A DNA stretch of 47,210 nt from a virus, in the IMG/VR virus record IMGVR_UViG_3300034073_002088, positions 1 to 47,210 of that record, one strand, 5' to 3'. Position 1 is the first letter of the stretch; every line of letters starts with the position of its first letter. The notes beneath the pieces were generated by a model. The model saw nothing but the letters and a program-made list of their open reading frames with translations, had not been told where the DNA came from and ran no database searches. Shown piece by piece: positions 5,878 through 24,649 of the stretch. A program made the translations under genes and the position numbers.

Positions 5878-6157
5878 TGTCGTCCCCCTCTTGCCCGATT
5901 GGGCCTCTCAAGAAATCTTCACCAGTTCGCTCGCCAGCGGCCGTTTGCGGGAGCCTTGGGTACCCTAGCGGCCGACCCCGCCTTGCCCGCCAGCGCGCAG
6001 CCCCAACGCGAGCAAACGGCATTCCACGGGCCAACTCGAACGCTACAGAACGCAGAACCCTTGAATTTGACCCGTGGCGGCCATTTCGATTGGCCCTAGC
6101 CATACCCACCACCACGCAACAAAACTCAGCCAGCGGCCAGCTACGGCCCGGCAATCG
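5878..6157. other. Intergenic spacer without supported gene
   Basis: I see no gene with a plausible start and composition. The open frame running through here on the minus strand overlaps the ssb start by more than 150 nt in another frame and has low-complexity Arg/Gly-rich content. GCGGCCG occurs near 5938 and 5970 and could pair. Confidence 0.35.
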
Positions 6158-6850
6158 CTATTTCGCCATGTCCCCATCGTTCCAGCTCGTAATTCCGCGC
6201 GGCCTCGGCTTGGCTTGAGCCGCCAGCCGGTAGAACGCGGCCAGCTCGGCCAGGGCCACCCGGAAATGGGCCATGATCTGCCGCGAGCCGCAGCCCAGCG
6301 TGCCCTCGAGGGCGGACGGGAACATCTCACGCCCGATGATCGCCTCGGCCAGCCACGCCGCCACGTAGTGATCCCGCGCGAACGCGCCCCGCCTCTGCAT
6401 CGCCGTCAGACGGGCGGCGCCGATATCCCGAGCCCTCACCGTCCGCGCGGCCCCTTTGCCGGTCCATCCGCGCTTCTGATCCTGGCGGGTCTGCTCGGTC
6501 GCGTGGAACCCGATGGCGTCGTAATTCATCACGCCGGACGACCGATCCATCGCCATGTCGTAGTCGAGCCTGTACATGCGGCAGACCGCCTGCTCGAGAT
6601 CACTAAGCGTGCCCCGCTGCACGAGATATTCGACAGGGCTCAGGCGATGCGGCGCGACGATCTCGATGCCGCCGAGCTGATCCTCGATGCGCCGCAGGTC
6701 CCCAACGCCCAGCGCGCCGTCGAGCGCGATCTTTGCCATTGGCGTCATCTCGGCGTGGATTGATCGGGCCGCGATGTGCTCGACCAGGGACCGCGACACG
6801 TCCTCGACGTCGGGCTCGCGGTCCCATGCGGCTGTTTGTGCTTGCGTCAC
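6158..6850 (-). CDS. Unknown early protein, possible regulator
   Basis: GTG 6850 with GGAG 7 nt upstream gives 230 aa; longer frames would run through the operator at 6875. The C-terminal part (LGCGSRQIMAHFRVALAELAAFYRLA) looks like an HTH-like or helical end, and the middle contains charged helices. It sits behind its own operator-like site, between the primase-helicase and ssb. A transcription regulator or antiterminator is possible, but I do not recognise the family. Confidence 0.5.
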   Translation of the reverse strand: MTQAQTAAWDREPDVEDVSRSLVEHIAARSIHAEMTPMAKIALDGALGVGDLRRIEDQLGGIEIVAPHRLSPVEYLVQRGTLSDLEQAVCRMYRLDYDMAMDRSSGVMNYDAIGFHATEQTRQDQKRGWTGKGAARTVRARDIGAARLTAMQRRGAFARDHYVAAWLAEAIIGREMFPSALEGTLGCGSRQIMAHFRVALAELAAFYRLAAQAKPRPRGITSWNDGDMAK

Positions 6851-6874
6851 ACGCAATCTCCGTTCCGTTGACGC

Positions 6875-6889
6875 TTGCACAATCTGCAA
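6875..6889. promoter_or_regulatory. Operator TTGCA-N5-TGCAA
   Basis: TTGCACAATCTGCAA matches the consensus perfectly. It lies 25 bp upstream of the GTG start of the 230-aa gene and just after the end of the primase-helicase gene, marking an internal regulated start of transcription on the minus strand. Confidence 0.6.
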
Positions 6890-6931
6890 TCTGTGAATCA
6901 CAAAAAGGCCCCTTGCGCAAGGAATCACTAC

Positions 6932-8503
6932 TCAGAACTCAACGATGTCGGAGACGAACGGAGGGACCGTAGGGCCTCTGTCAAACGGATCAGCTTGGCC
7001 GATGCCGTCCGGCATAGTGCCGTGGACCGCCGCCGCCTCATCTGGCGCAGCGGGCGCCGAGAAAAAATACTCGGCGTTGCGATTGTAGATCATATCCATC
7101 GTGCCGAGCCGCCCGGTGCCGTGCCACTTGACCTTGTCGATCTTGATCGACGTGCGCGATGTCAGGCGGTCCTTGCGATGAACGATCACGACATGGTCGG
7201 CCATGCCCTCCCAATGCCCGCCGCCGCTGATGTCGGCCATCGTCGGCTCGCGGGTCTCGCCCTTGGCCGGATTGTAAACGCCTCGGTTCGGATGGGTCAC
7301 CACGAACAGCATGATGTTCCGCCGCCGCGCGAACGACTTGAGCGCGTTCAGCGCCTGCCGCTCGGCCCGGATCGGATCGCGCCCGCCGTCGAAATCGATC
7401 TTGTTCCAGGGGTCCACCACGAGCACGTCGTAGCCGTGCCTCATGAGTGCTTTGTCGGCCATCTCGAGCAGCCAGGGGATGGTCGGGAGCTCGCCATCCT
7501 CGCTCGCCGTGCGGTCCATGAACACGAATCCGTCGCGAATCCATTGATCAGCTGCGCGCCGATCCTCGTCGGACATCGTCACCTTCAGGTTCTGGAATCC
7601 GGCCTCGTGGCTCCGCTTGATGGATCGGACCCTCTTGGACCGGCCATGCCAGTACCGCCGCAGTCGGTCCCGGTAGAAGGGTTTCACGGGCTCCTCGAAC
7701 GAGGCAACGCACGCCCGCATCCCCCGGCAGACGAGATCGCAGACGACGCCCGTCAGCCACGTGGATTTGCCGTGCGAACTGACGCCAGCCACGACAGTCA
7801 TGCCGCCGCGAAACGGGCGGTACAGGTCGTCGAGGCCGGGCATCTCCATGCGGTATGCTTCGATCTCCGCCTCAGGGTAATCGTCGAGCGTGAATACACC
7901 GGCGAGCGGATAGGGACGCGCCCCGTCGAGGCAGGCGCGCACCGCGTCCGGCCCCAGCTTGACGCGCACCTCGTTGAGGTCTTTGCAGCCCTCGGGGTAC
8001 TGGACGAACTTGCATCGGGCCTCGTCGAATAGCCCGGCCAGGACTTCGCGATACGCCACGCCCTTCTCGTCGCCATCGGTCGCCAGGATGATCGTCTGCC
8101 AGTGCTGCATCGCCTCCGCCCGGAATGGGTCAAGCCGTGCATCCGATGCGGACGTGGCAGCGCCCTTGGTCCCAGACACCGCCACGTAGCCCGCAGCGAG
8201 CGCCGTCAGGCAATCCAGCTCGCCCTCGGTGATCACCAGCGCCTCGCCAGCCTCGGCAACCGCCTTGTCTGCGATGGCTGCGCCGTTGAACAGCGCAGGC
8301 GCGTCACTGATCGTCTCTGTCGTCCATTTGCGAGACTTGTCGCCGCCCGGCAGCAAGAGCTTCCATGCGACGAGCTTTCCATCCGGCGTCTGCGACGGGA
8401 ATCCGATTCGAGGCCCCCGCGTCTCGACGCCGATCCGATCCGCCACGTCGAGATCGATCCCCCGCTCCGTCTCCAGCCACGCCCGATGACCCTGCGCCAG
8501 CAT
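6932..8503 (-). CDS. Toprim primase / DnaB-type helicase (T7 gp4-like)
   Basis: From ATG 8503 (GGGGGA 7 nt upstream) the protein has 523 aa. A Toprim domain comes first, with VITEGELDCLTAL and IILATDGDEKG carrying the metal-binding acidic residues. A RecA-like hexameric helicase follows: Walker A GVSSHGKSTW, Walker B DVLVVDP and THPNR further on. This is the T7 gp4/Twinkle layout, and it would prime and unwind at the phage origin. The zinc-binding primase domain usually at the N-terminus is encoded just upstream in another frame (8512-8732), so the intact protein may need a frameshift or the two parts may act separately. Reading in this frame stays open to 8695. Confidence 0.85.
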   Translation of the reverse strand: MLAQGHRAWLETERGIDLDVADRIGVETRGPRIGFPSQTPDGKLVAWKLLLPGGDKSRKWTTETISDAPALFNGAAIADKAVAEAGEALVITEGELDCLTALAAGYVAVSGTKGAATSASDARLDPFRAEAMQHWQTIILATDGDEKGVAYREVLAGLFDEARCKFVQYPEGCKDLNEVRVKLGPDAVRACLDGARPYPLAGVFTLDDYPEAEIEAYRMEMPGLDDLYRPFRGGMTVVAGVSSHGKSTWLTGVVCDLVCRGMRACVASFEEPVKPFYRDRLRRYWHGRSKRVRSIKRSHEAGFQNLKVTMSDEDRRAADQWIRDGFVFMDRTASEDGELPTIPWLLEMADKALMRHGYDVLVVDPWNKIDFDGGRDPIRAERQALNALKSFARRRNIMLFVVTHPNRGVYNPAKGETREPTMADISGGGHWEGMADHVVIVHRKDRLTSRTSIKIDKVKWHGTGRLGTMDMIYNRNAEYFFSAPAAPDEAAAVHGTMPDGIGQADPFDRGPTVPPFVSDIVEF

Positions 8504-16646: not shown

Positions 16647-17061
16647 AGAGATCGTTGTGCGCAGCCAGCAGGGCGTCCTCGTGCCGGTCGACGACGAGGG
16701 CGAGAGCGCCATCATCAATCTCGACGGCAAAGAGGTGATGGCCCGGCTCTGGCTGGCCCGCAGCCTCAAGCACAACCGGTGGGCGCACAAGCTCTTCGCC
16801 CTCGTCGCCGATAACCACCCGTTCTTGCAGACGCCCCAGGCGGTCAAGACGGACATCAAGCTGCGGCTCGGCATGTTCGATCCGGTGATCACGGCAAGCG
16901 GCAAGCTCGTCTACGTCATGCACTCAACGTCGTTCGCCGCGATGGATCAGCAGGAGTTCCAGACGTTTATCGAGGGAGCGGAGCGGGTCATCTGCAAGGA
17001 CCTGCTGCCAGGGATCACGAGCGATGAAATCGCAATGGAGATCATGAGGTTTTTGCGATGA
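16639..17061 (+). CDS. DUF1367-like phage protein
   Basis: 140 aa. The pattern LWLARSLKHNRWAHKLFALVADNHPF followed by IKLRLGMFDPVITASGKLVYVMHSTSFAAMDQQEFQTFIEGAERVI resembles DUF1367-type proteins found near recombination genes in lambdoid phages. Function unknown. It overlaps recT by 8 nt and the next gene by 4 nt. Confidence 0.6.
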   Translation: MAEEIVVRSQQGVLVPVDDEGESAIINLDGKEVMARLWLARSLKHNRWAHKLFALVADNHPFLQTPQAVKTDIKLRLGMFDPVITASGKLVYVMHSTSFAAMDQQEFQTFIEGAERVICKDLLPGITSDEIAMEIMRFLR

Positions 17062-17312
17062 CGAAGCGACAAATGCGCAGGCCCGCGATGAGGGACTACA
17101 CCGACGAGGAGCGCACCGCGCTCTGGAAATCGATCCAACGGACAATCGAGGGCCATCGCCACGACGAGGTCATCCGCGCCCTGATCTTGCTCGCGTGTTT
17201 CCACAGTTTCGCGCCGCACCGCACCGTCCAGGACGTCGAGTTCCACATCCACAACAAGGTCGACGACGCGATCCGGAAGATGTCGGCGCCATCCCATGCT
17301 CTCATCCACTAA
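17058..17312 (+). CDS. Hypothetical 84-aa protein
   Basis: ATGA overlap with the previous gene and overlap with the next support it as part of the operon. It is helical, with a His/Phe-rich middle (LLACFHSFAPHRTVQDVEFHIHNKV). No family recognised. Confidence 0.5.
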   Translation: MTKRQMRRPAMRDYTDEERTALWKSIQRTIEGHRHDEVIRALILLACFHSFAPHRTVQDVEFHIHNKVDDAIRKMSAPSHALIH

Positions 17313-17694
17313 GAACCCGCGCGCCCGTGATCGGGCGTACCTCACCGCACTGCACGAGATGGTCTGCGTGACGTGCGGCAGCAGCCAGAACATCGAAGCG
17401 GCGCACATCCGCGTGACCCGCATCGATTGGACTAAGGCGACAGGCATCCGCACAGGAGCCGGAGGCGCCGAGAAGCCGAGTGACGCCTGGGCGGTGCCGC
17501 TCTGCTCCTCATGCCATCGCGAAGGCCCCGATGCCGAGCACCGGGTCGGGACCATCGCCTTCTGGAAATCGCGCGGGCTCGATCCGCACGAAATCGCAAG
17601 TGAGTTGTATCGAGCGTTCCTGCGTGGGGGAGCACGGGCGATGGCATCGTCAATGCTCAGGATCAGGACTTTCGGGACAAGGGGCAAGCCGTGA
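17296..17694 (+). CDS. HNH-type nuclease-like protein (DUF968/NinG-like)
   Basis: 132 aa with CVTCG near residues 24-28, an IEAAHIRV His (about 38) and CSSCHREG near 72-79 followed by EHRVGTIAFWKSRGLDP. This spacing matches zinc-binding HNH proteins of phage nin-like regions that assist recombination. The catalytic His pattern is AAHIR rather than DHI. Overlap of 17 nt with the upstream gene. Confidence 0.7.
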   Translation: MLSSTKNPRARDRAYLTALHEMVCVTCGSSQNIEAAHIRVTRIDWTKATGIRTGAGGAEKPSDAWAVPLCSSCHREGPDAEHRVGTIAFWKSRGLDPHEIASELYRAFLRGGARAMASSMLRIRTFGTRGKP

Positions 17695-17807
17695 AGGCGC
17701 TCAACTCAATCATCGCATGGGTCGTCATGCTGGCGACAGTGAGCTTCATCGCGACGTTGATCGGCACGGGCGGGGCGATCCTGGCGCACATCGGGGGCGG
17801 GCAATGA
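17691..17807 (+). CDS. Small single-pass membrane protein (38 aa)
   Basis: GTG 17691 overlaps the upstream TGA as GTGA, and its stop overlaps the next ATG as ATGA, so it is embedded in an overlapping operon. The peptide MKALNSIIAWVVMLATVSF continues as a hydrophobic helix of about 28 residues with a Gly-rich end. Function unknown. Confidence 0.55.
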   Translation: MKALNSIIAWVVMLATVSFIATLIGTGGAILAHIGGGQ

Positions 17808-18037
17808 CGAAGCAGCAGCGGCGTATGCTCTCGATCATCGACGAGCGGATCAGGGCGGATGGCGTGTCGCCGTCGTTCGAGGAGCTGCGCCAGGGCATGG
17901 GTCTGGCGAGCAAGTCTGCGGTGCATCGCATTCTCGGCGCCCTCGAGCGCGAGGGTCACATCTCTCGCAGCAAGTACTTTGCGCGAGCGATCCGCATCAA
18001 CCACCAGTCCTGCCCGCATTGCGGCGGCGCGATCTAG
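17804..18037 (+). CDS. Stand-alone LexA-like winged-helix protein
   Basis: 77 aa matching the LexA N-terminal domain: RRMLSIIDERIRADGVSPSFEELRQGMGLASKSAVHRILGALEREGHI. There is no peptidase domain; instead it ends CPHCGG, half of a zinc knuckle. It could bind SOS-box-like sites without being cleavable, modulating host or phage LexA-type promoters. Confidence 0.65.
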   Translation: MTKQQRRMLSIIDERIRADGVSPSFEELRQGMGLASKSAVHRILGALEREGHISRSKYFARAIRINHQSCPHCGGAI

Positions 18038-18045
18038 GGGGCGCC

Positions 18046-18282
18046 ATGTCGGGCATCAAGATCACCAACACCCCATCGCACGGTGACGTCGAGAACTGGA
18101 TCGCCGCCTCGGCGGTCAAGGTCGGGGATCGCGTCAAGATTCCCAGCAGGTCGGCTAACCCGATGCGCGGGAAGCAAGGAGTCGTAGTCAGAGTTGCACG
18201 TGGCGTTGTCAGCGTTGTGTTCCCGGAGTCGGACAAAATCGAACGCTTTCAAGCCCGGAGCATCATCCGTGTCGACCAATAG
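18046..18282 (+). CDS. KOW/SH3-like small protein
   Basis: 78 aa from ATG 18046. The segment VKVGDRVKIPSRSANPMRGKQGVVVRVARGVVSVVFPE has the shape of a KOW motif, found in NusG/ribosomal proteins and phage antitermination factors. Function inferred only at fold level. Confidence 0.5.
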   Translation: MSGIKITNTPSHGDVENWIAASAVKVGDRVKIPSRSANPMRGKQGVVVRVARGVVSVVFPESDKIERFQARSIIRVDQ

Positions 18283-18550
18283 AGATACCGTCAAAGAGGT
18301 TCTGCGCTCGGCCTTCGAGCGCATCAAGCGATGCCGATCCAAGGCCATCGCGGCCGCCATCGTGACGCGCACCGCCGAGCAGCCAGGGGACGTATTCGAT
18401 CCATCCTACCTGCGCAGCATCGGACCGGCAGATGCCGACAAGGCGGGCGAATGGTCGGCGGAGATCGCAGCGTTGCGCGCCGAGCGGGCGGTGATCGCCC
18501 AGCGCATCGCGGCGCTGCAGCACGCAATCGACAGGACAGCACGGGCATGA
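18269..18550 (+). CDS. Hypothetical 93-aa helical protein
   Basis: GTG 18269 with GGAG 9 nt upstream, overlapping its neighbours on both sides. Basic N-terminal helix (VKEVLRSAFERIKRCRSKAI), then a helical C-terminus (SAEIAALRAERAVIAQRIAALQHAIDR). No family recognised. Confidence 0.45.
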   Translation: MSTNRDTVKEVLRSAFERIKRCRSKAIAAAIVTRTAEQPGDVFDPSYLRSIGPADADKAGEWSAEIAALRAERAVIAQRIAALQHAIDRTARA

Positions 18551-18996
18551 GCTGGGGAGAGCACATCATGAGCCTTGCAGCCCACGTCGCGAGCAAGTCG
18601 AAGGACAGCACGAAGGTCGGCGCCGTCCTTGTGGGCGATGGCAACGTCGTGATCCTGACGGCCTACAACGGCCCGCCTCGCGGCGTTGCGGACACCCCGG
18701 ACAGGTTCGAGCGTCCGGCGAAGTATCTCTTCGCCAGCCATGCGGAGGCGAACCTGATTGCCTTCGCGGCTCGCGAGGGCGTCAGGACGGCAGGCAAGGC
18801 CGTCTACTGCACGCACCACCCGTGCTCGTCATGCGCCCGCACGATGATCCAGGCGGGCATCGCTCGCATCCATGTCGGCAACGGCACCACGCGCATGCCG
18901 CCAGAGGAGTTCGACGCGGCTCGGCTCATGTTCGGCGAGGCAGGCGTCCCGGTCGTCTTGCATGAGCCGGACGTGCGGATCGTCGAGGACGGATAA
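18547..18996 (+). CDS. dCMP/CMP deaminase
   Basis: 149 aa with the zinc deaminase signature: HAEANLIAFAAREG (zinc His and catalytic Glu) and THHPCSSCARTMIQAGI (PCxxC). KVGAVLVGDGNVVILTAYNGPPRG is typical of deoxycytidylate deaminases. It would convert dCMP to dUMP for dTMP synthesis; with the DfrB-like gene at 21086 it suggests the phage supports thymidylate supply. Confidence 0.9.
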   Translation: MSWGEHIMSLAAHVASKSKDSTKVGAVLVGDGNVVILTAYNGPPRGVADTPDRFERPAKYLFASHAEANLIAFAAREGVRTAGKAVYCTHHPCSSCARTMIQAGIARIHVGNGTTRMPPEEFDAARLMFGEAGVPVVLHEPDVRIVEDG

Positions 18997-19017
18997 CAAG
19001 CAGCAGCGAACGAGACG

Positions 19018-19231
19018 GCTCGGCCTGCCTGTCCCTTGAAACCCTCCCCGGAGGTGCCGAGCCCCACCGAACGACCGGCCTAGGACCACCTGAAACCCTG
19101 GATCGGTGTGCCGGTCGCCACCACCAACAGAAAGCTCGGCCTGCGGGCATATGAAACCCTTCGAAACTGTGCCGAGCCCCACCGAACGACCGGCCTGTAC
19201 TTGCTTGAAACCCTACACCGAGCTGCCGGTC
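19018..19231 (+). ncRNA. Tandem dual-spacer hairpin array, cluster 1 (4 units)
   Basis: Units: 19018-19062, 19073-19116, 19134-19177, 19188-19231. Each is arm, CT, 9-nt variable (10 in the first), TGAAACCCT, 9-nt variable, T, complementary arm. Arms alternate GCTCGGC/GCCGAGC and GACCGGC/GCCGGTC. Linkers are conserved: CCCACCGAAC after the first type, a 17-nt GCCACCACCAACAGAAA after the second. Compensatory arm changes argue for a folded RNA. The layout fits a TIGR array (tandem interspaced guide RNA) with two 9-nt spacers per guide. The last unit is followed by GCCCTTCTTG and the ribosome binding site of the next gene. Confidence 0.8.
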
Positions 19232-19260
19232 GCCCTTCTTGAACCAACGAGGAAATCAAC

Positions 19261-19851
19261 ATGAAACCGACCACGAACCCGTCCGAAGTCCTGTCGAGCC
19301 TCATCGCGAAGCATCTGGCGATCCAGCCACAAGAGGACGCGGCCATCGCGTCTCGTGTTGCAGCGGAGATGATCGGCGACGTGACCCTAACCCGGTGGGC
19401 GCTCGAGGCATTCGTCATGGAGCGGCTGAACCGCATCGAACGGGATCATCGCCGTGATGCAATCGTGGCTGCCCGTGACGGCATGACAGCAGCGCCACGC
19501 GAGATCGCTCGGCGTCGACAAGAGGCGATACTGCGCGGCCAGATGGAGGCCACGCGAGGGCGTGTTGCGGAGCGGGCCAAGATTCTCCGCGAATACGGCC
19601 CGTACTTGATGATGGCATTCGACGGTGCCCCGCTCTACGGCATGACGCGCGACCAAGTCCTCGACATTGCCAGCCGCCGCGAGACCGTTGGGCGCACCTA
19701 CCAGCAGCAGGCCGGGTATCTGCGGGACATCGCGATCAGGCTCGGCAGCGATCAGACCGTTGCCGATGCTTGGACCGAGGCCGATCTGGCGCGGCTGTAC
19801 GTGAGGAAATTCCAAGGCGGGGAAGCGCCATTGCTTCAGGCTGCGGAGTAG
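19261..19851 (+). CDS. Unknown 196-aa protein between the two arrays
   Basis: ATG 19261 with GAGGA upstream. Entirely helical, charged sequence (ERLNRIERDHRRDAIVAARDGM; EIARRRQEAILRGQMEATRGRVAERAKIL), then a globular C-terminus (GRTYQQQAGYLRDIAIRLG). Its start ATGAAACCG resembles the array core TGAAACCCT, perhaps by chance. It lies between the two hairpin clusters and upstream of the Nop-domain gene, so it may be an accessory protein of that system or a passenger. No family recognised. Confidence 0.55.
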   Translation: MKPTTNPSEVLSSLIAKHLAIQPQEDAAIASRVAAEMIGDVTLTRWALEAFVMERLNRIERDHRRDAIVAARDGMTAAPREIARRRQEAILRGQMEATRGRVAERAKILREYGPYLMMAFDGAPLYGMTRDQVLDIASRRETVGRTYQQQAGYLRDIAIRLGSDQTVADAWTEADLARLYVRKFQGGEAPLLQAAE

Positions 19852-19857
19852 CAGAAC

Positions 19858-20124
19858 CGGGCGGCCCGGAACATCGTGAAAACCTGAATGCGTCTGCCGC
19901 CCGTCCTCAAAGCTCGGCCTGCCCGCACGTGAAACACTCTATCGCGGTGCCGAGCCCCACCAAACGACCGGCCTGTACCAGTATGAAACCCTTTATCGTC
20001 TTGCCGGTCGCCACCACCAAAAGAAAGCTCGGCCTGGACCAACGTGAAACCCTAACCGTCGCTGCCGAGCCCCACCAAACGACCGGCCTGATGCCACTTG
20101 AAACCCTGAGATGCCGTGCCGGTC
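19858..20124 (+). ncRNA. Tandem dual-spacer hairpin array, cluster 2 (5 units)
   Basis: Units: 19859-19902, 19912-19955, 19966-20009, 20027-20070, 20081-20124. The pattern equals cluster 1. The first unit has a third arm pair GGGCGGC/GCCGCCC, CC instead of CT and core TGAAAACCT; the second has TGAAACACT. All spacers differ from each other and from cluster 1. The cluster starts 7 nt after the stop of the 196-aa gene and ends 24 nt before the Nop-domain gene, so array and mRNA are probably one transcript. Confidence 0.8.
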
Positions 20125-20148
20125 GCCCTTCTCCAACAAGGAACCCAA

Positions 20149-21066
20149 ATGGACCACATCAACGCCACCATCACAGCGATGGCCGACCTTGCCCGTGAGC
20201 GTAACATTCTGATCAAGCACACAACGGCCAGCTCGAACAGGATCACAGCCGTGTGTCGCGGCTTCATCCTGAACGAGAATCCCGCGCTCGCAGCCGCATC
20301 GGTCATCACGCAGGACATGACCGACAAGCAAAAAGCCAAAGCCATGAAGGTCCGCGAGAAGATCAAGACGATGGCGCTGGCAATGGCCGAGCGGATCAAG
20401 AAGGGCAGCAAGGAAGGCGGAGACGGGCACGCTCGGGCCGCCATCGACATCATCGCGCGCAACATCAACGACGTTGCCAAGAAACGCGAGCGGATCGACG
20501 CGGACATAGGACGGCTCGCGAAGACGTTGCCAATTGCGCCGTGGGTCGACACCGTGACGGGATTCTCCCACACGCAGGCGGGTCTGATCCTGGCCGAAAC
20601 TGGCAACCTCTCGAATTACGCCACGCCGTCGCGCGTCTGGAAGCGCATGGGGCTCGCGGTGCTCAACGGTGCTGCGCAACGGCGTATCAAGGGTGACGAT
20701 GCGATCCCCCAAGGCTACGTCCCGCGCCGCCGCGCCGTGATGTACATGATCGAGGACACCGTCCTGCGGCTATCGATCACCGGGGAAAAGGAAGACCAGC
20801 CGCGCGCGTCCATCAATGAGTTTGGCGACATCTACATGCGCGAGAGGGCCAAGCGTGAGGCGCGCATCGCTGCTGGCGAGAAGCTCTGGAAGGGCGCCCA
20901 CTATCAAGCGCGCCGCATCATGGGCAAGGAATTGCTTCGGCAGATGTGGGTGGAGTGGCGCCGCCGCGTCGACATGATCGACGACATTGAGCAGCAGGAC
21001 CCCTGGGCGGACGTGCGCTTCATGCAGCGCGAGACGGCGGTCAGGCATCAGGAGGTCGCGGCTTAA
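20149..21066 (+). CDS. Nop/IS110-C-terminal-like protein (TasA-type candidate)
   Basis: 305 aa from ATG 20149 (AAGGA upstream). Residues about 1-127 are helical with a charged coiled coil ([26 protein letters not shown]). Residues about 128-205 look like the Nop domain or IS110 transposase C-terminal (Transposase_20) domain: [40 protein letters not shown] and then [14 protein letters not shown] basic helical end follows. There are no RuvC, DEDD or HNH motifs. In TIGR-Tas systems the Nop domain holds a dual-spacer guide RNA, as in box C/D snoRNPs; a nuclease-less form would bind but not cut. Position right after the arrays supports this. An IS110-derived protein is the alternative. Confidence 0.7.
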
Positions 21067-21085
21067 AGCTGCGTCGGGGGATATC

Positions 21086-21448
21086 ATGGAAGACAGAAAG
21101 ACGTTCCAGCAGGCCTGCGAAGAAATCGTCGTCGCCATGCAAACCGCAAACATGGATAGCGCGCACGGCCTCGTGCTCAAGAGCCACCACGACTATTGGT
21201 GGCGGAAGACGTTGTCGGCCATGCAGGAACTTGAGGCGGAGAAGGCATTCTGGCTATCGGGCGAGGGCAGGAAATTCGCGCTCGGCCAGCGCGTCCGCAA
21301 GACGAAGGGCTCGTCCTGGCATGGCCGCGTCGTCGGCGTCTATTCGACGGAACTGACGCCAGTCGGCTATGCGGTCGAGAGCGAGCGCGAACCTGGGTCG
21401 GTGCAGATATATCCAGAAGCAGCGCTGGAGGCGGTCGATGCGCGTTGA
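21086..21448 (+). CDS. DfrB (R67)-like type II dihydrofolate reductase with N-terminal extension
   Basis: Residues 62-120 closely match R67 [41 protein letters not shown] and PGSVQIYP. The active-site residues Lys32, Gln67, Ile68 and Tyr69 of R67 correspond to Lys72, Gln107, Ile108 and Tyr109, and core Trp38 to Trp78. R67 is a 78-aa homotetramer that makes tetrahydrofolate and resists trimethoprim. Here a 60-residue helical extension (with a Cys and two Trp) precedes the SH3-like domain. It would support thymidylate synthesis beside the dCMP deaminase. Start ATG 21086 with GGGGG upstream. Confidence 0.85.
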
Positions 21449-21644
21449 TCTGGAGCCCAGCCTTGAGGAGCGCGCCGCCAATTGGCTCGCCGATCTAGCA
21501 ATCGCAACTGTTGCAAAGGCGGAGCGCGATGCGTGCGCGGCCATCGCTGACGATGCGGCGGCCTTCCTTTCTGATCGCGGCGAGCACGCCTTGGCGGTCG
21601 TCGCCAAGGGCATTGCCGAGCAAATCAGAAAGCGCGCGAAGTAG
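21438..21644 (+). CDS. Small helical 68-aa protein
   Basis: ATG 21438 overlaps the end of the DfrB-like gene. Ala/Glu-rich helical protein ([39 protein letters not shown]), followed closely by a hairpin. It contains a near-operator sequence (21502-21516), probably by chance. Function unknown. Confidence 0.5.
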
Positions 21645-21651
21645 GTTCCAG

Positions 21652-21738
21652 CCCCTGCAACGGGGCTGGCTTCTGGGGCCGTAGGGCGCATCTGGCGGCC
21701 CCTGCCCGGCGGGCGTCATGCGCGGCGACCCGCCGGGC
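21652..21738 (+). promoter_or_regulatory. Two strong hairpins before the ATP-grasp gene
   Basis: CCAGCCCC and GGGGCTGG form an 8-bp stem around TGCAAC at about 21652-21673. GCCCGGCGGG and CCCGCCGGGC form a 10-bp perfect stem at about 21703-21738. No U-tract follows either, so they are more likely RNA processing or stability elements than terminators. Confidence 0.4.
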
Positions 21739-21764
21739 CAACTCAAGCGCAAAAGGAGAGAGAC

Positions 21765-22550
21765 TTGCGGAAGGTAGACATCGTGTTCAAGGAACCAACC
21801 GACGAGGAACTGCGGGCATCCGCGCTCCAATGGCAGAGCATCATGGAGCCGCTTCTGATCGACAAGTGGTCGCCCGGCCTGCTCGCGCTATCTGCCCCGA
21901 CCACGTTCCTGGAGTTCCCCATGGAACTCGCCCGCGAGTGGTGGCAGGAGGAGGAGACCGGCTGGTCGGATACCGCCGAACGGTTCGCATCAGAGATTGA
22001 TCGCGCGTGCGGCTGGGATCTCAAATTCTTCCGCCTCAACAGCAGGTCTCCAAAGGACTGGATGTGGCCGCTGAAGGCGCTGGTCTCGTGCTCGGGACGC
22101 ACGATGTTGTGGGTGATGCGCGGCAGCGAGCGGATGCTGGACGACCTCACGCGGTTCGCGCGCGCCGACGTAAAGCCGGTGCTTTGCCTCAGAGACGTGC
22201 TCTACGGGTGCACGCCGAGTTGGGAACTGCGCGTGTTCGTAAAGAACGGCGTGGTCAAGGCAGTCGCGGAGTACGGGCACGGGCCCACGCTTCGGTTCCC
22301 GCGCGAGAGCGACGAAGAATTGCGAACCAATGCCGAGCGCTACGTCCTCGACGTCGTCGGGCCGCACCTGCCGCGAGACACGGTCGTCGTCGACCTGTTC
22401 TGCGAGTTGCAGAAGTTTACGCTCATCGAGATCAACCCTTACGGCCTTTCGGACCCGGTCGGCGCCGTCAGCTACGAGGCCATCGAGGCGGGCATACCCG
22501 GTATCGCGCGGCATTCCGCTCGCAACAAGCAGGAGGCGGCGCGTGTCTAG
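21765..22550 (+). CDS. CDC123/D123-like ATP-grasp protein
   Basis: TTG 21765 with AAGGAGAG upstream gives 261 aa. FFRLNSRSPKDWMWP, CLRDVLYGCTPSWELRVFVKNG and the late acidic VVVDLFCELQKFTLIEINPYG correspond in order to the motifs of CDC123-like ATP-grasp proteins (PRLN-SPKD; Arg-rich EFR-FV; DxN-type metal motif). Eukaryotic CDC123 helps assemble eIF2; bacterial and phage members are predicted to ligate or modify proteins or RNA. Target unknown. Confidence 0.65.
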   Translation: MRKVDIVFKEPTDEELRASALQWQSIMEPLLIDKWSPGLLALSAPTTFLEFPMELAREWWQEEETGWSDTAERFASEIDRACGWDLKFFRLNSRSPKDWMWPLKALVSCSGRTMLWVMRGSERMLDDLTRFARADVKPVLCLRDVLYGCTPSWELRVFVKNGVVKAVAEYGHGPTLRFPRESDEELRTNAERYVLDVVGPHLPRDTVVVDLFCELQKFTLIEINPYGLSDPVGAVSYEAIEAGIPGIARHSARNKQEAARV

Positions 22551-22605
22551 CCTCACGAAGCGAACGCGCTGGCCGGGAACGGCTCAGAGACAAAGGAGAC
22601 CGGAA

Positions 22606-22803
22606 ATGGATAAGGACGGGCTGTGCAGAGCCATCGACGCACTCGACAACGTGACCGCGAGCCTTGTCAACCTCACGTCGCTATCTGACCGAGTGCACGT
22701 CGAGGCGTTACGAGAGGTGCTGCCAGGGATCATCGCCGCGCTGAAACAGCATTCGGGCTACGAGGCGTATGTCGGCGACATCGCTGCCAAGGAATCAATC
22801 TGA
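22606..22803 (+). CDS. Small helical 65-aa protein
   Basis: ATG 22606 with AAAGGAG upstream and ATGA overlap with the next gene. Acidic helical protein (CRAIDALDNVTASLVNLTSLSDRVHVEALREVLPG). Function unknown. Confidence 0.55.
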   Translation: MDKDGLCRAIDALDNVTASLVNLTSLSDRVHVEALREVLPGIIAALKQHSGYEAYVGDIAAKESI

Positions 22804-23036
22804 TGCCAGCACGCAAGATCAAGGACGACGACGGCGTCGTCGTCACGCCGGGATGCAGGATTGCGTTCTCGTACAGCATCCCGCCCGTGCCCGTCGAGGC
22901 CGAGGTCATCGAGCGCGACGGCAAGATAATAGCGCTGACGCCCGGGCACAATCCGCCCGAGTGTCCGGTGGCGAAGTTGCAAGAGTACGTCTGGAGCTTC
23001 TGGGTTGTGGAGCAGGAAGCCGAAGATGCACTTTAG
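22803..23036 (+). CDS. Small 77-aa beta-rich protein
   Basis: Start overlaps the preceding stop (TGATG). SH3-like beta strands are likely (GVVVTPGCRIAFSYSIPPVPVEAEVIERDGKIIALTPG), ending in a Trp-containing acidic tail. Function unknown. Confidence 0.55.
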   Translation: MPARKIKDDDGVVVTPGCRIAFSYSIPPVPVEAEVIERDGKIIALTPGHNPPECPVAKLQEYVWSFWVVEQEAEDAL

Positions 23037-23172
23037 AGCAGATAACTGGGAGCAGCACGAGGTGCTTTGCTTCCGAGGCGCATCGGCCCAGATCGTGTCC
23101 GTGTGGGTCTTCGCGCGAAGCTGGCGCGAGGCGTGCGAAACGGTCCGGCGCGCGGGATGGACGCCTGCGTAA
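23026..23172 (+). CDS. Small 48-aa protein before integrase
   Basis: ATG 23026 overlaps the previous gene by 11 nt and the stop lies 19 nt before the integrase start. MHFRADNWEQHEVLCFRG continues to VWVFARSWREACETVRRAGWTPA, a natural-looking Trp/Arg-rich small protein. It could be an excisionase-like factor by position, but it shows no clear HTH. Confidence 0.45.
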   Translation: MHFRADNWEQHEVLCFRGASAQIVSVWVFARSWREACETVRRAGWTPA

Positions 23173-23191
23173 ATCGAAATAGGAGGCAGCG

Positions 23192-24385
23192 TTGGCAACT
23201 ATTGTAAAGCGTGGCGGCACCTATCACGCGCGGCACATATATAGAGTGAATGGCGTCCGCAAAGAGAAGACCAAGAGCCTCGGCACGGGGGATGCCCGTG
23301 TCGCCTACCAGCGCCTCGCCGAATGGGAGCGCGAGCTGCAAGCCAGCGAGTTCGGCGAGGTGTATCGCATCCTGATCTCCGACGCGATCATAAGGTGGCA
23401 GCAGGAGACATGGTCGGCGCTGCGGCCCAACACCATCGCGCGATACGAGACGAGCATCGCCCACATCCGCAAGCACTTCGGCGCCAAGCGGGTCGCATCG
23501 ATCACGACAAGCGATCTCGCCTCCTTCGAGGCCGTGCGCCGCCGCGCACCCGGCAGGTTCAAGTCGGACGGCAAGGGCAACGCGGTGTACGCCGCCAAGG
23601 ACAACGGCAAGAAGCTCGGCCCCCGTGTCGCTTGGGCGCCCGTCAGCGATACGACGATCCGGCGCGACTTCGCCTGCCTGTCCTCGCTCCTGACGTTCTG
23701 CGTCTCCCATCGATGGGCCGACGAGAACATCGTCGCGGGCTACCTCAAGTCCCGCAAGCAGGCGCTGGGGCGAGCCCAGGCGCGGACGCGATATCTGACG
23801 CACGAGGAGGAGGCCCGGCTGATCGCTGCCGCATGGCGCCGCAGTCAAGCGAGCGAGTTCGAGCGGCGGATGCTCCCGGCAGCGATCCAATTCGCCATCG
23901 CCACGGGGCTGCGCATATCCGAGATGATGGCCCTGACGTGGCAGGATGTGCAAAGGGGCTCACGGCCCCGAATTGCAGTTCGGGAAGGCAAGGGCGGGAA
24001 GGCCCGGATCGTCCCGTTGCAGCCATGTGCTATTTCCACACTCGACGAGATGCCCGTAGCCCACGGTGGTGGTCTGGTGTTTGCCCACGAGGACGGACGC
24101 CCGCGCGGCAATTTCGACGCCGCGTTCGCATCGGCGTGCAAGCGGGCCGGGCTGCCCGACGTGACGTGGCACGATCTTCGCCGGACGTGCGGGTGCCGTC
24201 TGCTGCAAGACCTTGAGATGAGCATGGTGCAGGTGAGGGATTGGTTGGGTCACAGCTCGGTCGCAGTGACGGAACGGCACTATGCGTTCCTCAAGCTCGA
24301 TGACCTCTTCGAGGCGCTCGAGCGTCATGCGCGAATCGATGCTCGTCCGAAGGCGGACGTTGTGCCGCTCCGTGGACGTCGCTGA
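23192..24385 (+). CDS. int: Tyrosine integrase
   Basis: TTG 23192 with AGGAGG upstream gives 397 aa. N-terminal arm-binding part, a SAM-like core-binding domain (about 60-185) and a catalytic domain with the full set: Arg in ATGLRISEM, Lys in EGKGGKARIVPL, His/Arg in WHDLRRTCG, His in WLGHSSV and Tyr in ERHYAFL. It should recombine attP at 24496-24540 with a host tRNA gene. Two small hairpins follow the stop (24392-24412, 24418-24436). Confidence 0.95.
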   Translation: MATIVKRGGTYHARHIYRVNGVRKEKTKSLGTGDARVAYQRLAEWERELQASEFGEVYRILISDAIIRWQQETWSALRPNTIARYETSIAHIRKHFGAKRVASITTSDLASFEAVRRRAPGRFKSDGKGNAVYAAKDNGKKLGPRVAWAPVSDTTIRRDFACLSSLLTFCVSHRWADENIVAGYLKSRKQALGRAQARTRYLTHEEEARLIAAAWRRSQASEFERRMLPAAIQFAIATGLRISEMMALTWQDVQRGSRPRIAVREGKGGKARIVPLQPCAISTLDEMPVAHGGGLVFAHEDGRPRGNFDAAFASACKRAGLPDVTWHDLRRTCGCRLLQDLEMSMVQVRDWLGHSSVAVTERHYAFLKLDDLFEALERHARIDARPKADVVPLRGRR

Positions 24386-24495
24386 CGCATGGGGTGTGGC
24401 GATTCCACACCCGCGAGGCACGATCTCTGCGTGCCCGACGAAATAAATTATTGAAAGACAACGGATTACAGAGACGGCGGCGGGCGATTTAATTC

Positions 24496-24540
24496 CTCAT
24501 AATCCTTAGGTCGGCGGTTCAAGTCCGCCTCCCGCTACCA
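24496..24540 (+). other. attP core: 3' half of a tRNA gene (CAU anticodon)
   Basis: The sequence contains the anticodon loop CTCATAA, the 3' anticodon arm TCCTT, a T-arm GGCGG-TTCAAGT-CCGCC, acceptor strand TCCCGCT, discriminator A and CCA. The 5' half is missing: upstream bases cannot pair with TCCTT. Integrases often use such blocks so that insertion rebuilds the tRNA, probably tRNA-Met or tRNA-Ile2. Phage genes on both sides mean this is attP, not attL/attR. The next terminator may belong to the element. Confidence 0.8.
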
Positions 24541-24550
24541 ACAAAATCAA

Positions 24551-24581
24551 GGGGTTAGCTGCCATCCAGCTAGCCCCTTTT
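24551..24581 (+). terminator. Rho-independent terminator (+)
   Basis: GGGGTTAGCTG pairs with CAGCTAGCCCC (one G-T wobble) around a 5-nt loop, followed by TTTTGCTTTTT. It separates the integrase operon from the accessory operon. Confidence 0.75.
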
Positions 24582-24649
24582 GCTTTTTCGGACCACCACA
24601 CCGCCTGCAAACACCGGCTGCCAGGGTGGTTCGATTGGTGTAGCAGTGA

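Follow-up and report, generated by a model that had tools for sequence, protein, structure and literature searches.

Where did the R67-type dihydrofolate reductase (DHFR) come from, and what was its role before trimethoprim? This question is touched by a small gene in a virus record of IMG/VR that is 47,210 bases long; the whole record was analysed and is called the window here. The preliminary description of this DNA had presented the gene as a phage-encoded DfrB/R67-like reductase with a new N-terminal extension, placed in an operon next to dCMP deaminase, and had proposed phages as the reservoir from which dfrB genes later entered integrons.

The window gene encodes an R67/DfrB-like core with its active-site residues

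The phage DfrB-like gene (21086..21448, + strand) is single-copy in the record. Its reading frame is open, starts with an ATG 6 nt behind GGGGGA, and translates to 120 aa. PF06442 (DHFR_2, R67 DHFR) matches residues 63-117 with an E value of 3e-24 (85.1 bits, the cut-off being 25), and the NCBIfam model trim_DfrB, aligned over its positions 22-77, matches residues 62-117 at 1.2e-26, with a score of 92.4 bits that lies under the resistance cut-off of 137. R67 crystal chains match residues 63-117 at about 1e-18; a further match there is to PHROG 31682, a family without assigned function. The SH3-like core spans residues 62-118 (21269..21439, + strand) and holds the equivalents of K32, W38 and VQIY: Lys72, Trp78 and Val106-Gln-Ile-Tyr109 align with K32, W38 and V66-Y69 of R67, so the conserved Lys, Gln-Ile-Tyr and Trp named at the outset are indeed kept. 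Glu stands at the position of R67 H62 and Val at that of W45.

Identity between the window core and plasmid DfrB enzymes is 64-72%. The barrel of the AF2 model has a pLDDT of about 90-95, and its seven best Foldseek matches are all R67 DHFR, at 0.7-0.8 Å (for 2gqv: 4.6e-8, TM 0.96 by target length, 0.8 Å). The likeness to R67/DfrB1 (PDB 1vie, 2gqv, 2rk1) thus concerns a 55-residue SH3-like core, with 59-65% identity over the Foldseek alignments. On the other hand, the window protein has 120 aa and R67 has 78, a helical hairpin is predicted where R67 has its short disordered N-terminus, and the gene lies in a phage early region, whereas the clinical genes lie in integrons. The PF06442 match and the R67 fold match of the model bear out the original assignment and, judged by its sequence, the window gene truly belongs to the R67/DfrB family and is under constraint.

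The N-terminal extension is predicted to be helical and is under constraint

The helical extension of about 60 aa that had been described from the sequence (21086..21268, + strand) reappears in the AF2 prediction as a hairpin, with helices at residues 7-21 and 25-58 and the barrel after them; the pLDDT of this part is moderate (about 65-85). No known family could be assigned to it: a PHROG search with the extension alone gave no match, a Pfam search of the window protein gave no second domain beside the core, and an extension-only scan of viral contigs returned a single relative, encoded on a 5.3-kb viral contig (L002). The two proteins are 85% identical over residues 1-117, and dN/dS between them is 0.12 for the extension, 0.055 for the core and 0.10 for the whole gene. 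Such values point to purifying selection on both parts: the extension must be translated with the protein and under constraint, and the whole reading frame is a real gene. As L002 and the window have nothing in common at the DNA level outside the gene, the gene appears to move as a unit.

Extended DfrB homologues of phages and bacteria, DfrB-H2 to DfrB-H6, have been published (Lemay-St-Denis 2023, PMC9835603). They include proteins of a Pseudomonas phage and a Vibrio phage; in them, too, the core carries additional domains, and the genes lie in phages or next to recombinases. Of five homologues assayed, two of which come from phages, four made E. coli resistant to trimethoprim; DfrB-H5 was shown to reduce dihydrofolate with kinetic constants like those of R67 (PMC9835603). 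The phage gene type is therefore already known, and of the novelty first claimed only the extension itself remains new, as it differs from DfrB-H2 to DfrB-H6 in matching no searched family and in being common to one other viral contig only. The same core, at no more than 80% identity, is also found in phage proteins annotated as DHFR/R67 (Rhizobium phages RHph_TM3_3_3 and RHph_N3_2, Ochrobactrum phage ZX86) and in an unannotated gene of phiM9, but their N-terminal domain is different or absent. By homology to such proteins, the window protein would be expected to have DHFR activity.

A TIGR-Tas-like locus lies between the dCMP deaminase gene and dfrB

The dCMP deaminase gene (18547..18996, + strand; PF00383 4.9e-20, PHROG dCMP deaminase 1.1e-34) is on the same strand as dfrB, which loosely fits the operon first described, but it lies 2.1 kb upstream and is not an immediate neighbour. 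Between the two genes there is a locus that the preliminary description had missed. A repeat search and a listing of the units gave two arrays, one of four stem-loop units (19016..19234, + strand) and one of five (19862..20127, + strand); all nine units are built around the repeat TGAAACCCT and are flanked by variable sequence of about 9 nt. An ORF (19261-19851, + strand) separates the arrays, and a Tas-like/IS110-like Nop-domain gene follows (20149..21066, + strand), whose stop codon is 19 nt before the dfrB start. This gene matches NCBIfam TIGR_Tas_endo at 3.8e-18 and IS110 at 4.2e-10, and its PHROG match is a transposase. The arrays and the Tas-like gene are much like the TIGR-Tas systems described in PMC12045711, although the score of 66 bits is below the Tas-model cut-off of 100.

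The early gene block ends with a tyrosine integrase gene (23192..24385, + strand; PF00589 2.7e-22, PHROG integrase 6.6e-58), and dfrB also stands a few genes before an integrase in RHph_TM3_3_3, Pseudomonas phage PS-1 and RHph_N3_2. A sigma-70 promoter search over 17000-24600 found none, and neither ThyA, ThyX nor a phage FolA was found in the window. Downstream of dfrB, an ORF at 21765-22550 has a match to D123 (PF07065, 1.8e-10), which is odd for a phage early region; the D123 family is known mainly from eukaryotes.

DfrB cores are found in many phages and keep their active site

A DfrB core is encoded in 213 IMG/VR viral contigs, in 26 phage records (several already annotated as R67 DHFR), in 98 plasmid records, where most of the matches listed are known dfrB resistance genes, and at 51 loci in a set of 84,980 species genomes. 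The only DfrB match in 384 other, evenly drawn genomes of Alphaproteobacteria was weak and below the cut-off. The architectures range from a 62-aa stand-alone protein to the C-terminal domain of proteins of several hundred aa, and many cores form the C-terminal part of unrelated early proteins. Among 50 extended members, Lar-like domains were found in two and no other enzyme domain was seen.

K32, W38, V66, Q67, Y69 and P70 are invariant across 121 distinct cores. For most of this set VQIY belonged to the search patterns, which in part enforces its invariance, whereas K32 and W38 formed no part of them. In a set picked without any motif, 12 of 12 annotated phage homologues keep K32, W38 and VQ(I/V)Y, down to 41-56% identity. 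Diverged DfrB genes of Schitoviridae Rhizobium phages (L284, L285, L026) adjoin the virion RNA polymerase gene, and in them GPVQIYP replaces GSVQIYP.

In the tree, the window core is separate from the clade with the integron dfrB genes

It had been suggested that the gene be placed in a phylogeny with dfrB genes. In a tree of 78 DfrB cores, based on 54 columns and with the bootstrap not settled, all integron dfrB rows fall in one clade (support 98/89), which they share with several phages and with genes of Burkholderiales. The window core is not inside this clade; it groups, with weak support, among mostly alphaproteobacterial phages. The clinical clade with its Burkholderiales genes, outside which the window core stands, agrees with a report of Burkholderiales as environmental hosts of dfrB (PMC11662351). 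As far as core sequences can tell, the tree argues against direct descent of clinical dfrB from the window lineage, and a direct route of the window gene from phage to clinic is not supported. Of the reservoir proposal, one half stands, as phages do hold DfrB (the 213 viral contigs set against the one weak match in 384 alphaproteobacterial genomes), while the integron origin is weakened by the tree. Phages may be an older source of dfrB, which is compatible with the tree.

Folate and pterin genes accompany some DfrB relatives

One 71-kb viral contig (L019, IMGVR_UViG_3300020045_001617) encodes at 6025-7023 an in-frame DfrB-ThyA fusion of 332 aa, which combines a DfrB core (2.5e-18) with a complete thymidylate synthase (1.2e-107) and has its ATG beside an upstream stop codon. 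This fusion is known from that single contig. Further candidates from tblastn (L296, L308, L309, L313, L314, L323) proved to be ThyA preceded by sequence that is unrelated or spurious, and RHEph10 and RHph_N1_10 were rejected as such fusions, since they carry a different domain (GDY, see below) and not a DfrB core. Joining the ends of the phiM9 record would leave about 1 kb between DfrB and a second thymidylate synthase-like gene.

In related freshwater phages, a stand-alone DfrB of the 62-aa class follows GTP cyclohydrolase I, and in six contigs (L079, L080, L084, L086, L089, L091) the cyclohydrolase stop codon and the DfrB ATG overlap as ATGA. GTP cyclohydrolase I was present at 16 DfrB loci, at 3 loci of the GDY domain and at 0 random loci. 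The freshwater cluster (L075) also has a gene like 6-pyruvoyl-tetrahydropterin synthase (QueD-like) and an ORF that by eye is QueE-like; because these two co-occur, the cluster may concern 7-deazaguanine and not folate.

As a class, DfrB phages are not enriched in thymidylate synthase: ThyA was found in 4/50 DfrB records and 2/48 random viral records, and ThyX in 0/50 and 3/48 (p 0.74 combined). The excess of dCMP deaminase (5/50 vs 1/48) is not significant either (p 0.2). No phage FolA was found in the 50 DfrB records (the window and 49 others), a count that covers DfrB records only. Most DfrB neighbours, such as integrase and HNH, are unrelated to folate.

A remote sister domain is linked to thymidylate synthase

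GDY-SH3 is the name that we give to a remote sister domain of DfrB. In profile comparison (hhalign) the two families align with a probability of 89-93 over about 51 columns, whereas 100 column-shuffled controls reached at most 9.5. At the R67 positions, GDY-SH3 keeps K32 and Tyr69, has His for Q67 and Phe for W38, and its loop is shorter; the predicted fold is the same. For the GDY model (pLDDT 94), the seven best Foldseek matches are all R67 DHFR, with the Q67H mutant first, though AF2 may know R67. A second structural aligner also placed R67 first, with Tudor domains close behind (Z 9.8 vs 9.2). As Tudor domains score nearly as high, kinship of GDY and R67 is not proven by structure alone.

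In the Rhizobium phages RHEph10 and RHph_N1_10, GDY-SH3 stands in frame at the N-terminal place before ThyA, just as DfrB does in L019. The GDY part was omitted from the annotated ThyA gene of the Rhizobium phages, and a TTG behind AAGGA is its probable start. Such GDY-SH3/ThyA loci of Rhizobium phages like RHEph10 are L369, L370, L385-L389 and L464. In Pelagibacter phage Kolga (L382), GDY-SH3 immediately precedes a thymidylate synthase that is very different; there the domain is C-terminal in gp36 (1713-2165), whose N-terminal half resembles, by eye, a phage nucleotide-modification-associated domain.

Thymidylate synthase was found in the examined flank of 35/80 viral GDY loci (a conservative count without kinship correction, most within 350 bases), of 0/80 random viral loci and of 1/92 DfrB loci. 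Tyr69 is kept in 19/19 distinct ThyA-linked GDY domains and in 24/32 others (p 0.02, kinship ignored). FolA was present in none of 13 records with ThyA and GDY and in none of 3 with ThyA and DfrB, as compared to 13/34 ThyA records with neither (p 0.004); these counts ignore kinship, and the records may be incomplete.

A reductase role is somewhat favoured for the window gene

For the window gene, our reading, held with slightly better than even confidence, is that it supplies a temperate phage, early in infection, with a type II (R67/DfrB-like) reductase for dihydrofolate or dihydropterin. Four barrel domains would assemble into the R67 pore, in which NADPH and dihydrofolate would meet and hydride transfer would proceed without a catalytic residue. 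The phage dCMP deaminase would feed dUMP to the host ThyA, which uses up tetrahydrofolate, and the reductase would regenerate the tetrahydrofolate consumed by thymidylate synthase. The helical extension would then be a replaceable addition that may serve oligomerisation or tether the protein to a partner. Counted in favour of this role are the core identity, the fixed active site, the R67 fold match and the active published homologues (PMC9835603), together with the L019 fusion, the GTP cyclohydrolase I overlap, the GDY-ThyA linkage, the absence of FolA and the dCMP deaminase of the window. Counted against it are the lack of thymidylate synthase enrichment, the non-significant deaminase excess, a window without ThyA or ThyX, and a fusion seen in a single contig. 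With no enrichment of ThyA/ThyX in DfrB phages and no significant excess of the deaminase, there are good arguments for a folate role in some relatives, but for the window gene such a role is no more than plausible.

The cores found at the C-terminus of unrelated early proteins would also suit a binding module. The published view is that a binding fold reduces dihydrofolate by accident, through a mechanism called primitive (Lemay-St-Denis 2023, PMC9835603), and in line with it the core could be a non-catalytic SH3-like binding or oligomerisation module on phage accessory proteins. The many unrelated sequences joined to the core, the mostly folate-unrelated neighbours and the thymidylate synthase counts of DfrB phages overall speak for this idea. 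It is nevertheless rather unlikely in our estimation, as the pore residues do not vary although the remaining parts of the proteins do, the core is fused to ThyA and translationally coupled to GTP cyclohydrolase I, and the sister family is linked to ThyA where FolA is absent. The freshwater cluster, in which GTP cyclohydrolase I meets the QueD-like and (by eye) QueE-like genes as in 7-deazaguanine synthesis, raises another scenario, namely NADPH reduction of some other pterin-like or deazapurine substrate, e.g., for phage DNA base modification, and not of dihydrofolate. No such genes lie near the window gene, however, and DfrB-H5 does use dihydrofolate with R67-like constants (PMC9835603), so we regard this scenario as improbable. 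Homology to dfrB might finally suggest a trimethoprim resistance cargo gene of recent clinical origin, but the score falls below the NCBIfam resistance cut-off (92.4 vs 137 bits), the core is outside the clinical clade, the identified neighbours are phage genes with no resistance gene among them, and DfrB is conserved across many phage groups; such an origin is thus very improbable indeed.

Type II DHFR may be an old phage reductase family

Three observations are new here: the DfrB-ThyA phage fusion, the freshwater DfrB that overlaps GTP cyclohydrolase I, and the GDY-SH3 sister family. The wider pattern that they form is more interesting than the window gene itself. The relatives linked to ThyA and to GTP cyclohydrolase I suggest a native use of the fold as a phage folate or pterin reductase. 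It is quite possible, although we stop a little short of even confidence, that phages have long had type II DHFR as a family of folate/pterin reductases, comprising DfrB cores as well as GDY-SH3 domains, the latter beside or fused to ThyA and replacing FolA, and that it is not a recent, drug-driven product of an inert barrel. Clinical dfrB would then be one mobilised branch of this family, and the window gene another, phage-resident one. Where phages have this fold fused with, or coupled to, either thymidylate synthase or GTP cyclohydrolase I, a native folate/pterin role becomes cheaply testable, and a FolA-free partner of phage thymidylate synthase, if true, would fill a gap in phage nucleotide metabolism.
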